Shown: positions 10,311 through 13,344 of the stretch, piece after piece
Numbering within the stretch: the stretch's first letter is position 1
Layout of the letters: each line of letters starts with the position of its first letter
Assembly: GCA_016932735.1 (NCBI GenBank)
Contig: JAFGCI010000008.1
Coordinates: 1 to 64,000 of the forward strand
Source of the DNA: Candidatus Aenigmatarchaeota archaeon
GTDB taxonomy: Archaea > Aenigmatarchaeota > Aenigmatarchaeia > QMZP01 > QMZT01
Direction: 5' to 3'
Length of the DNA: 64,000 nt
Made by a program: the position numbers and the translations under genes
The notes under the pieces: model-generated
What the model saw: only the letters and a program-made list of their open reading frames with translations
Database searches by the model: none
What the model was told of the DNA's origin: nothing

Positions 10311-10835
10311 TCAGTCTTCGATATCCTTTCCTTTCTCGCATGGGTTCACTTTGATTTTTGCCTCTTTGAACTCCACTTCAAGGCTTTTGCTGTTCAGCTT
10401 CTCAAGTGTTATAGCAAGCGCCGCGACTTCAGAATGGGGCTGTCCGGTTACTGCGATATTCCAGTCAGCTAGTTCGTATGCGTCCCATGGAACCTTCTCG
10501 CTTCCGACGATTATTAACAAATCTGATTTGTCGGAATTGATTTCTTTAATCCTGTCCTGTATCCTCATGCCGTACATTGTCAGATGGACGACCTTCCCGC
10601 CATTCTTCTTCCATTCTTTGACAACGGACTTCCAGTTGGGGTTGTAACTGCATTCAAAAGGACCGCCCCACTTGGCAGTAATTTTGTTTATGCTTTCGAG
10701 AAGGGCTTCGTCCTTCTCGCCGGAATATATTATTTCGTTAGCTCCGAGAGCGCGGGCGGCAAGGCCTACGTGCGTGGAAATCCTATGGTCCCGAAAATGG
10801 CGGTGGTTAATCCTGAGGATGGTGATTTTTCGCAT
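10311..10835 (-). CDS. tRNA (cytidine(56)-2'-O)-methyltransferase aTrm56
   Basis: 174 residues, the usual length for archaeal Trm56 of the SPOUT superfamily. Family hallmarks are visible: LRINHRHFRDHRISTHVGLAARALGA at the N-terminus, IIVGSEKVPWDAYELADWNIAVTGQPHSEVAALAI in the C-terminal SAM-binding trefoil knot. It methylates the 2'-OH of C56 in the T loop of tRNAs. Both tRNA genes in this window have introns in the T loop next to that site, so splicing order may matter for this enzyme. It follows the cysteine synthase gene with about 30 nt between them, likely co-transcribed. Confidence 0.9.
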   Translation of the reverse strand: MRKITILRINHRHFRDHRISTHVGLAARALGANEIIYSGEKDEALLESINKITAKWGGPFECSYNPNWKSVVKEWKKNGGKVVHLTMYGMRIQDRIKEINSDKSDLLIIVGSEKVPWDAYELADWNIAVTGQPHSEVAALAITLEKLNSKSLEVEFKEAKIKVNPCEKGKDIED

Positions 10836-10865
10836 AAACTATCAAGGATTAAAGAGAATAAAAGA

Positions 10866-11804
10866 TTATCTCTGAAAGAGCGAACTGGAAAGATATCTCT
10901 CCCCCCTGTCGCAGAGGACTGTCACTATATTATCATATTTGTCTTCTATACGAATCGCTGCTGCAAGATTCGCTCCGGAGCTTATCCCGACCAGCAATCC
11001 TCTTTTCCTTGCAAGGATTTCGCTCATCTCGATTGCCTCTTCGCTCGTGACCTCTATGACTTCATCAATCAGATGACGGTTCTCTTTTACAATCTGGGGG
11101 ATGAATCCTTCTCCAATTCCCTGTATCTTATGGAGTCCCTGTTTTTTTCCGTTGAGGACGGCCGATTCAGCAGGCTCAACCCCGATTATTTTGACGTCGG
11201 GATTGACCTCTTTCAAAGCCTTGGCGACGCCTATAATGGTTCCCCCTGTCCCGATTCCCGCGACAAAAGCATCAATCTTTCCCTTCATCTGGCAGATTAT
11301 CTCCTGCCCTAATCCGACTCTGTGGGCTTCGATGTTGTCCGGATTTTCAAATTGTTTCGGAAGCCACGCATCAGGATTCTCCTTTACCAGCTCTTTATAT
11401 CTTCTCATAGCTCCTTCCATGTCCTCTTCGGCCGGAGTCAGGACTATCTCTCCGCCGAATGCCTCAATCATCTTCCTTCTTTCGGGACTCATGGACTCCG
11501 GCATGACGGCCTTGAACTTATAGCCTCTGATGGATGCGACCATTGCTAACGCAACGCCTGTGTTCCCGCTTGTAAGCTCAATAATAGTCGAGCCGGGCTT
11601 AAGCTCTCCCCTTTCTTCGGCTTTCCTTATTATGTAGGAGACCATCCTGTCCTTTACGCTTCCTGTTATGTTGAAGGCCTCTAATTTAGCATGAATCTTT
11701 CCTATATTCATTATCGGCGTGTTGCCGACTGCATCAAACGGGCAGTTGCACGCTATTCCTGACTTCTTCCACCCGTTCCTGTATTCCAGCTCTCCTGACT
11801 CCAT
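10866..11804 (-). CDS. Cysteine synthase, PLP-dependent (CysK/CysM family)
   Basis: 312 residues. The PLP-binding Lys is in FNITGSVKDRM, the phosphate or substrate loop is ELTSGNTGVALAM, and the glycine-rich PLP-phosphate loop is GIGTGGTIIGVAK. It makes cysteine from O-acetylserine or O-phosphoserine and sulfide; the acceptor cannot be decided by eye. The SD GGAGGATG is strong. About 65 nt upstream, on the same strand, ends a Cys-rich 20-codon frame with its own TATA box, suggesting cysteine-dependent control. Confidence 0.92.
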   Translation of the reverse strand: MESGELEYRNGWKKSGIACNCPFDAVGNTPIMNIGKIHAKLEAFNITGSVKDRMVSYIIRKAEERGELKPGSTIIELTSGNTGVALAMVASIRGYKFKAVMPESMSPERRKMIEAFGGEIVLTPAEEDMEGAMRRYKELVKENPDAWLPKQFENPDNIEAHRVGLGQEIICQMKGKIDAFVAGIGTGGTIIGVAKALKEVNPDVKIIGVEPAESAVLNGKKQGLHKIQGIGEGFIPQIVKENRHLIDEVIEVTSEEAIEMSEILARKRGLLVGISSGANLAAAIRIEDKYDNIVTVLCDRGERYLSSSLFQR

Positions 11805-11829
11805 ATCGCATCCTCCTTAATCTGAATCT

Positions 11830-11849
11830 CTAAAAATTCCTAAAAATTG
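11830..11849 (-). terminator. Two T5 tracts between the poly-Cys frame and cysteine synthase
   Basis: On the coding strand the region reads AATTTTTAGGAATTTTTAG. Runs of five T are sufficient to pause or terminate archaeal RNA polymerase in some contexts. They lie after the stop of the Cys-rich leader and before the SD of the cysteine synthase, the place expected of a leader attenuator. This is inference only. Confidence 0.35.
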
Positions 11850-11871
11850 AGAAGGGCCAATGCTTTTGCGT

Positions 11872-11934
11872 TTAGCAACAGCAGCAACAGCTGCAAGAAC
11901 AAATCTTCATATTCATGCTGATTTGGCACTTCAT
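11872..11934 (-). CDS. Candidate cysteine leader peptide
   Basis: A 20-codon frame (MKCQISMNMKICSCSCCCCC) with 8 Cys codons, five of them consecutive just before the TAA stop, lies upstream of the cysteine synthase on the same strand. A TATA box (TTTATAAG, 11956-11963) is centred 26 nt before the ATG, so the transcript should begin at or next to the ATG (leaderless). GCAGC-TGTT-GCTGC within the Cys codons can form a hairpin. By analogy with amino-acid leader peptides in bacteria, ribosome stalling at Cys codons when Cys-tRNA is scarce would alter expression downstream. That it works this way in an archaeon is inference. Confidence 0.6.
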   Translation of the reverse strand: MKCQISMNMKICSCSCCCCC

Positions 11935-11955
11935 GGTAAAAATATCGCTAAAATC

Positions 11956-11963
11956 CTTATAAA
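11956..11963 (-). promoter_or_regulatory. TATA box for the Cys leader and cysteine synthase
   Basis: TTTATAAG on the minus strand, centred about 26 nt before the ATG of the poly-Cys frame. No comparably placed TATA box is seen between the leader and the cysteine synthase, so one transcript probably carries both. Confidence 0.5.
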
Positions 11964-12118
11964 CAGCTATTGTTCCACGTATTTTAGATAAAATCATATT
12001 ATACATTTATAAATATTACCTGTTACTAATTATAGTAATCTTGTGAGAATATTCACAAAAATAATTTGCGCAGAGGCCAAAAAGCCTGCTGTGTTGGATA
12101 TTCCAGGGTGTTTTATTA

Positions 12119-12679
12119 ATGGGCGGATCAGGTACAGATAAGAAATTGGAAAGAAAGATAAAGAAGACGGAAGAAGGCACAGAGGAAGCGAAAAAGCCCA
12201 AGTACGTCGAAAAGAAAAAACAGTTTAACATTGCTCGTTTGATGGAGACTAATGTTAACGGCGACAAGCCGGTTATTTCTGCAATAAACCATATCAGAGG
12301 AGTTTCACCGATGTTCGGCAATGCTGTAGCTCTGGTTTTCGGGAATCCGGCAAAGAAGGTTGCTGACCTTTCGGATGCGGAGATACAGAAGATAGAGGAT
12401 ATCATAGCTAACCCTCAAAAGTATAAGATTCCTTCATGGTTATTCAACAGAAGAAAAGACCCCGAGACGGGAGACGACAGGCACGCTTCAGTCTCAAGCC
12501 TCGAGTTCACGAAGACAATGGACATAAACCAGATGAAGAAGCTCAGGTCATACAGGGGCATAAGGCACATGTTCGGCCTTCCCGTCAGGGGACAGAGGAC
12601 AAGGTCATCTTTCAGGAAAGGAAAATCTGTCGGTGTCAGGAGAAAGAAAGAGGCTCCGAAGACCTCGTCCAAGAAGTGA
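12119..12679 (+). CDS. rpsM: 30S ribosomal protein S13
   Basis: 186 residues. The archaeal S13 core begins near residue 35 (FNIARLMETNVNGDKPVISAINHIRGVS), followed by the helix-two-turns-helix region and the basic C-terminal tail (GIRHMFGLPVRGQRTRSSFRKGK) that contacts 16S rRNA and the P-site tRNA. A 35-residue Lys/Glu-rich N-terminal extension makes it longer than most archaeal S13. First gene of S13-S4-S11-L3. The upstream gap to 11,935 holds the cysteine leader promoter and AT-rich DNA. Confidence 0.95.
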   Translation: MGGSGTDKKLERKIKKTEEGTEEAKKPKYVEKKKQFNIARLMETNVNGDKPVISAINHIRGVSPMFGNAVALVFGNPAKKVADLSDAEIQKIEDIIANPQKYKIPSWLFNRRKDPETGDDRHASVSSLEFTKTMDINQMKKLRSYRGIRHMFGLPVRGQRTRSSFRKGKSVGVRRKKEAPKTSSKK

Positions 12680-12684
12680 TTATT

Positions 12685-13344
12685 ATGAGGAAAATGAGAC
12701 GAAATTATAAGAGGCCGAAATCCCCGTGGAACAGCTCTGTCATTGACGAAGAGAGAAGGCTTCTGAAGGAATTCGGGCTTAAGAGCAAGAAAGAGCTCTG
12801 GAAGGCCAGGGCAACGCTCAGGGACTACAGGGCACGCGCAAGGGAGATAACGGCAACAAAGAATGAAACAGACCGGAAAATCCTTCTGGACAAGCTCGCA
12901 AATCTCAATATTCTTACAAATAGCCAGGGCATAGACGATGTTCTTGCCCTTTCAGTCGAGGACATCCTTAACAGGAGATTACAGACGATTCTGTTCAGGA
13001 AGAACCTTGCAAATACTATGAAACAGGCCCGGCAATTAATCGTCCATGGCCACGTCTTAATCAATGACAGGAAGATGGTATTCCCGTCATACTTCGTTCC
13101 CGCTTCAGAGGAAGGAATCATATCGGTGTCAGAGGAGATGCAGAAGCTGATGGCTGCAGCCGCCCCGAAACCCGAGATAAAGCATCCGAAGGGAGCGCAC
13201 ACGCACAAAGAGCCAAGGACGGAACAGCCAAAGAAGGCAGAGGCACCAAAAACTGATGATACCAAGCAGGCGAAACCGACTGAAGAACCAAAACCGGAAC
13301 CTGCTCCAGATGAAGCAGAAGCTAAAGGGGAGGGTGGTCAGTAA
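12685..13344 (+). CDS. rpsD: 30S ribosomal protein S4
   Basis: 219 residues starting at [16 protein letters not shown], five nt after the S13 stop; the longer open frame running back into S13 is spurious. The S4 N-terminal domain and the S4 RNA-binding domain ([29 protein letters not shown], about 110-145) are clear. The last 60 residues are a low-complexity Lys/Glu/Pro tail ([24 protein letters not shown]), longer than in most archaeal S4. Its stop overlaps the S11 start by one base. Confidence 0.95.

Follow-up and report, generated by a model that had tools for sequence, protein, structure and literature searches.

A poly-cysteine leader frame upstream of an archaeal cysK gene and its probable role as a cysteine-responsive leader peptide

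The window, that is, the whole 64,000-nucleotide stretch of archaeal DNA analysed here, carries on its minus strand the gene cysK (10866–11804), which encodes a cysteine synthase A of 312 amino acids (Pfam PALP, 250 bits; TIGR01139, 361 bits against a cut-off of 351) and is preceded by the Shine-Dalgarno (SD) sequence GGAGG at 11812–11816. Upstream of cysK, the putative regulated gene, and on the same strand lies the short poly-Cys leader ORF MKCQISMNMKICSCSCCCCC (11872–11934), which runs from ATG 11934–11932 to TAA 11874–11872. As described in the initial annotation, eight of its 20 codons are Cys codons, and five of these (TGT TGC TGC TGT TGC, 11875–11889, minus strand) are consecutive and abut the stop, which is separated from the cysK ATG by 67 nt. 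On the other side of cysK, the gene for the tRNA 2'-O-methyltransferase Trm56 (10311–10835, minus strand; Pfam PF01994) follows on the same strand after 30 nt and is possibly co-transcribed with cysK. The archaeal nature of the host, which had been proposed from the letters of the window, is borne out by a uS13 of the archaeal family, by Trm56 and by aCPSF1, and the termination factor aCPSF1/FttA is encoded in the window's genome (TIGR03675, 817 bits). Elsewhere in this genome (G000), the tRNA-Cys gene (C1:102909–103019) contains an intron and has no Cys leader upstream.

The leader ATG is preceded by a TATA box, TTTATAAG (11956–11963, minus strand), whose centre lies 25.5 nt before the ATG, in agreement with the distance of about 26 nt first assigned to it, and no SD was found ahead of that ATG. 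This spacing, together with the missing leader SD, would point to a leaderless mRNA; judged from the TATA spacing, the leader would be an ORF at the very 5' end of its transcript. Between the Cys run and the cysK SD, at the place given for them in the initial annotation, are two T5 tracts on the minus strand: one at 11842–11846, a candidate archaeal U-tract terminator that begins 26 nt past the leader stop, and another at 11832–11836. Of the non-ORF windows in the genome, 1.8% contain two runs of T5 or longer inside 60 nt, and paired T tracts also follow the leaders of the genomes G007 and G184. The pairing of GCAGC with GCTGC that had been pointed out within the Cys run does exist, but the leader RNA folds no better than its shuffles (z = −0.71), and no terminator-like hairpin site was found in the window. 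The leader RNA of G007 likewise folds no better than shuffles. Classical hairpin attenuation was dropped because the leader folds of G000 and G007 stay at the level of shuffles, with neither a terminator nor an antiterminator hairpin. Positions 10500–13000 of the window were compared with the Rfam covariance models, including those of riboswitches and T-boxes, and gave no hit at E values of up to 1.

The Cys run is exceptional within its own genome. In a count of Cys codons over the last 12 codons ahead of each stop, made for both strands of the whole 1.18-Mb genome, the leader, with seven, was the top-ranked Cys-dense ORF end and the sole stop-ended frame with more than five. The runners-up, four cases with five Cys codons, were rejected as further Cys leaders; none is upstream of Cys genes, and they mostly lie within or antisense to longer ORFs. 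In 12 Mb of order-3 Markov simulation, six Cys codons were reached once and seven never. Furthermore, the pattern (TGY)5 has a single occurrence in the genome, which is the Cys run of the leader itself.

Similar leaders recur upstream of cysK in other archaea. CysK was searched in 392 genomes, many of them incomplete assemblies, of which approximately 236 lie outside the window's phylum and 79 gave a match; the window's phylum is represented by a single class of 156 species with genomes of 0.3–1.9 Mb. Upstream DNA was taken for nearly all CysK matches, and 84 regions were scored with a fixed rule, namely at least four Cys codons in the last six before a stop, located at most 400 nt ahead of the CysK match. 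Seven of the 84 regions conform to this rule (G000, G007, G267, G317, G266, G162, and G335), where dinucleotide shuffles predict 0.01 and the antisense strand yields none, and the seven leaders are spread over four families (f1, f39, f68, and f90). Weaker versions of the leader are present in G126, G337, G184, G264, and G254, and the majority of the archaeal cysK genes sampled have no such leader. The peptides include MNTMDLCCCC in G162, MKLNLCCCC in G266, MAIIMLMQGLACCCCC in G317, MRKMACCCCC in G335, MLKMNGFHPRSGDCRCCCCRG in G267, and MDWQTSQKTESSNECRCLTCQCCL in G337, each ending at a stop codon; no residue is constant except Cys, and the other codons differ. In G317 and G335, a second conserved stretch, ACCMNP, lies between the poly-Cys leader and cysK and ends at the cysK start, its frame being +1 in one of the two genomes and +2 in the other owing to an indel. 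A phylum-wide search with the pattern TGYTGYTGYNNNTGYTRR returned matches mostly inside or antisense to genes and was set aside, as was a CysK scan of genome contigs, which yielded one bacterial contig only and was uninformative. The closest CysK relatives of the window's enzyme are in G264 (63%) and G184 (61%), both from other phyla, suggesting horizontal transfer.

Within the window's family, nine genomes were compared, and a cysK match is present in three of them (G000, G004, and G007). Across all nine, the pattern TGYTGYTGYNNNTGYTRA has exactly two sites, one in G000 and one in G007, each directly upstream of cysK; the family members that lack cysK have none. In G004, cysK sits straight behind another gene and the leader is absent. 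The G007 leader, with the C-terminal part MTTVNGITEKRTLARNFSSCCCRC (ending RNFSSCCCRC before the stop), ends 62 nt ahead of the following ATG; a TTTTAAA box is located approximately 24 nt before the leader's own ATG, and a T5 and a T6 tract come after the leader. On alignment, nothing obvious is shared apart from the Cys codons close to the stop. The check on relatives suggested in the initial annotation accordingly came out in its favour, the Cys run being kept while other codons vary in G007 within the family and in five further archaea. Some 290–340 nt upstream of the CysK match, G007 also contains MVKKKSAKKKESGCSCC, a basic mini-ORF ending in Cys before its stop, whose Gly-Cys codons sit in an inverted repeat, CCGGTTGC..GCAACCGG; this repeat competes with AACCGG-GCCA-CCGGTT ahead of a T7 tract. 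Across the poly-Cys leaders, 10 of 11 have no SD, and in eight of 11 the best TATA match is centred 22–31 nt before the ATG, consistent with leaderless starts.

Two explanations without regulation have to be weighed against these data. A TGY trinucleotide repeat could have fallen in the Cys frame by accident, and the run, TGYTGYTGYTGYTGY, does look repeat-like; however, it is unique in 1.18 Mb, mixes TGC with TGT, has more Cys codons ahead of it, and reads CCCRC in G007, which is no pure repeat. Together with the seven conforming cysK upstream regions, where 0.01 would be expected, this leaves the accident a vanishingly small probability, and the statistics already refute a chance origin of the Cys run. 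The 20-residue product could instead be a functional Cys-rich mini-protein that binds metal or serves in redox binding, with no regulatory leader involved. Cys-dense mini-ORFs do exist elsewhere in the window's order, such as MPEKKKELCCCCCSC in G010, which ends at a stop, has its own strong SD, is flanked by a peroxiredoxin-like and a ferritin-like ORF, and may possibly encode a real Cys-rich mini-protein. The leader frames, however, share neither a residue nor a spacing besides the Cys at the stop (MNTMDLCCCC, MKLNLCCCC, and MAIIMLMQGLACCCCC), lie in every sampled case a short distance upstream of cysK, with none in antisense, and have no counterpart in the cysK-less family genomes, which makes a mini-protein very unlikely. 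With the recurrence in seven of 84 regions and with Cys as the only constant residue, a Cys-sensing leader in archaea is well supported, and the reading of the locus as an amino-acid-sensing leader, put forward at the outset, gains from it. Very probably, then, the leader peptide in the window makes an archaeal cysK responsive to cysteine and senses charged tRNA-Cys. Since similar frames stand before cysK in distant archaea, the ribosome probably serves archaea as a sensor of cysteine shortage.

In addition, the reading frame shifted by +1 from the Cys run (11817–11888, minus strand) is open over both T5 tracts as far as TAA 11819–11817, which abuts the cysK SD and lies 12 nt before the cysK ATG. 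Taken alone, this openness is weak, being expected by chance at 33%. In nine of 11 leaders, the +1 frame either ends no more than 16 nt short of the next cistron start or runs beyond it, against 3.3 expected on shuffling (p = 4e-4, a value that is approximate because the genomes are partly related, and for which the next-cistron start was picked by eye at some loci), whereas the +2 frame does so in two of 11, at chance level (p = 0.9). In G007 and G184, a single nucleotide separates the end of the +1 frame from the next ATG. The stop of this frame overlaps the cysK start or falls just inside it in G337, G317, and G162; the frame continues into cysK in G267 and G126 and stops 3 nt before tRNA-Cys in G266. 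With the later-found leader of G335 counted, the +1 path is open in nine of 12 poly-Cys leaders; the exceptions are G254, G264, and G335, in the last of which the open path is shifted to the +2 frame by an indel that sets it apart from G317. In the window's Cys run itself, neither a slippery P-site codon nor an internal SD is apparent, and an RF2-type cassette, ATG-x-GGNGARNNN[CGT]TYTGY, is absent from the window's genome and present in related loci.

These related loci contain a second leader type, M-(x)-G-E-x-[L/V/F]-C, coded ATG(NNN)GGKGAANNNYTTTGY, a short frame that came up repeatedly in upstream regions and pattern searches in the window's phylum and in other phyla. This M-x-G-E-x-L-C frame lies where cysK, or a neighbouring small winged-helix (HTH) gene, begins, and also upstream of tRNA-Cys, where ARAGORN assigns a GCA anticodon in G106, G107, and G109 and where the other loci were identified by reading the anticodon loop. 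In G107, it also precedes a ParB-like gene with a weak Pfam ParB_N match, which may encode SerK; in G057, a ThiI-like gene stands behind the tRNA-Cys; and in G104 and G173, the frame is upstream of PALP enzymes. The loci also include G063, G126, G053, and the family member G007. In both G057 and G105, the +1 frame runs stop-free from the mini-ORF through the tRNA-Cys gene into the ThiI-like protein. In G264 and G184, the cassette takes a variant form, G-D-Y-R-C, behind which cysK lies in +1. A single locus of G266 combines the two leader types: there, MKLNLCCCC and its stop are followed by tRNA-Cys and then by a frame ending in RDRLC and a stop, with cysK in +1.

Among the M-x-G-E-x-L-C matches, 35 loci were selected as a curated set; many other pattern matches were excluded as chance, having a long frame 0 and no +1 gene. 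From the Cys codon, the +1 frame is open for at least 40 codons in 35 of 35 curated loci, the +2 frame in one and frame 0 in one, the protein-gene loci having been partly chosen by the +1 property and the ten tRNA loci not. At those ten tRNA loci, the +1 frame is open for 51–254 codons and the +2 frame for 1–31. A direct GTG start (GTG AAN NNN TTT GCN) accounts for many individual +1 genes just as well. It fails, however, at loci with GGG or GCG in place of GTG or with TAG after it (G112, G108, G121, and G053), and likewise at the tRNA loci of G106, G107, and G109. Eight loci contain no GTG start in the +1 frame within the motif, and in four GTG-less loci (G107, G108, G109, and G112) TAG stands directly before TTT. 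Moreover, the SD is spaced 3–8 nt from the frame-0 ATG in most loci, a spacing that fits this ATG and runs counter to GTG as the +1 initiator. The M-x-G-E-x-L-C mini-ORF is probably a larger finding than the window's own leader.

Proceeding from the observed leader ORF, its position, its uniqueness, its recurrence before cysK, and its open +1 path, we infer the following course of events. Transcription would begin at or beside the leader ATG, and a ribosome on the leaderless mRNA would soon reach the eight Cys codons. With ample Cys-tRNA, the peptide would be completed and the ribosome would come off at the TAA 67 nt before cysK; the U-tracts would stay untranslated, and either the transcription of cysK, by intrinsic U-tract or aCPSF1/FttA termination, or its translation would be held low. 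With scarce Cys-tRNA, the ribosome would pause at the Cys codons, slip to +1, cross both U-tracts, stop at TAA 11819–11817 in contact with the cysK SD, and re-initiate on cysK. The termination step in this course draws on aCPSF1/FttA acting together with U-tracts (PMC8116511, PMC8716108) and on its proposed role in policing transcription–translation coupling (PMC11616081). The +1 slip, the translation through the U-tracts, and the re-initiation at cysK make up the sub-mechanism that we favour, tentatively and with a likelihood somewhat below one half.

The main rival to the frameshift needs stalling alone: a ribosome held at the Cys codons, close in the wake of RNA polymerase, could shield the U-tract RNA from FttA/aCPSF1, or its stalling could alter access to the cysK SD in the way suggested for the poly-Cys ORFs of mycobacteria, and this, too, is a substantial possibility that comes close to an even chance without reaching it. 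It stays alive because the window's Cys run is without a good +1 slip codon, the canonical slip site being missing from the leader. In its favour, too, the first T5 tract begins 26 nt past the leader stop; steric exclusion between FttA and the ribosome has been proposed (PMC11616081), and for the Cys leaders of Mycobacterium a Rho/tna-like mode has been put forward (PMC1262725). Mycobacteria, moreover, use leaderless poly-Cys ORFs as attenuators that depend on Cys, as reviewed in PMC9031893. Stalling, however, leaves unexplained why the +1 and not the +2 frame is open to the next start in nine of 11 leaders and why cysK is placed in +1 at the M-x-G-E-x-L-C loci, and an alternative RNA structure finds no support in the folds of G000 and G007.

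If the +1 shift is extended to all these loci, short frame-0 leaders, either poly-Cys or M-x-G-E-x-L-C with an internal SD, would end immediately when Cys-tRNA is plentiful, and under Cys-tRNA scarcity a +1 shift would lead directly to the protein or carry translation on to the next start or tRNA. That starvation-induced +1 frameshifting at Cys codons controls archaeal cysK, tRNA-Cys, SerK-like, PALP, and small HTH genes is conceivable from the arrangement of their frames, but we hold it at rather less than an even probability.

Amino-acid-sensing leader peptides belong to textbook bacterial regulation. An archaeal leader of this kind would imply that transcription–translation coupling is put to regulatory use in archaea. 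Because the leader recurs in several archaeal families, the question can be put to a direct test at the concrete loci named above. A limited search of the open literature brought up nothing pertinent to attenuation by amino-acid leaders in archaea or to frameshifting at Cys codons, which is weak evidence, as subscription literature lies mostly outside such a search. According to a 2016 review of recoding, no starvation-specific trans-frame product of hungry-codon frameshifting was known (PMC5009743). If the +1 evidence holds, it would answer the open recoding question of whether cells exploit frameshifting at starved codons, and the loci, if the reading is true, would form a natural 'hungry codon' frameshift regulon.

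Like the trp- and his-type leader attenuators, the window's leader ORF contains tandem codons for the amino acid that its pathway produces; unlike them, it shows no terminator or antiterminator hairpins. Its downstream logic also seems to depart from that of a bacterial hairpin attenuator, the +1 frame being open between the Cys run and the cysK SD. In the E. coli tna operon, Rho is kept off by a stalled ribosome, and the tnaC arrest works through the nascent peptide and tryptophan. The proposed archaeal arrangement resembles this occlusion in that a leader peptide is followed by a factor-dependent termination region without a hairpin, but its signal would be the lack of charged tRNA and its termination factor would be aCPSF1/FttA.

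In bacterial RF2 (prfB), a +1 frameshift serves autoregulation (PMC5009743). The M-x-G-E-x-L-C loci share with it an SD-like GGKGA, a short spacer, CUU or NUU, a slow UGN codon, and a main gene in +1; the slow codon, however, is Cys (UGC/UGU) and not the stop UGA, and the SD is one nucleotide farther away. Unlike both RF2 and the M-x-G-E-x-L-C loci, the window's own leader is without a frameshift cassette.

Poly-Cys leaders before cys operons, without terminators, have been predicted in Mycobacterium and others (Seliverstov 2005, PMC1262725), and the leaderless poly-Cys ORFs of mycobacteria are described as Cys-dependent attenuators (Canestrari 2020, as reviewed in PMC9031893). The archaeal leaders resemble these actinobacterial ones in the short ORF, the Cys run near the stop, the position upstream of cysteine genes, and the lack of a hairpin terminator. 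Leaderless transcripts, a feature of the mycobacterial leaders, are suggested for the archaeal leader by its TATA spacing. Unlike the actinobacterial leaders, however, the archaeal leader has an archaeal TATA promoter, a putative termination setting of U-tracts and aCPSF1/FttA, cysK directly downstream, and a +1 frame open to the next start. Judged by their descriptions, the two groups would share no sequence homology beyond the Cys codons, and the archaeal poly-Cys leaders are probably either of independent origin or very old.
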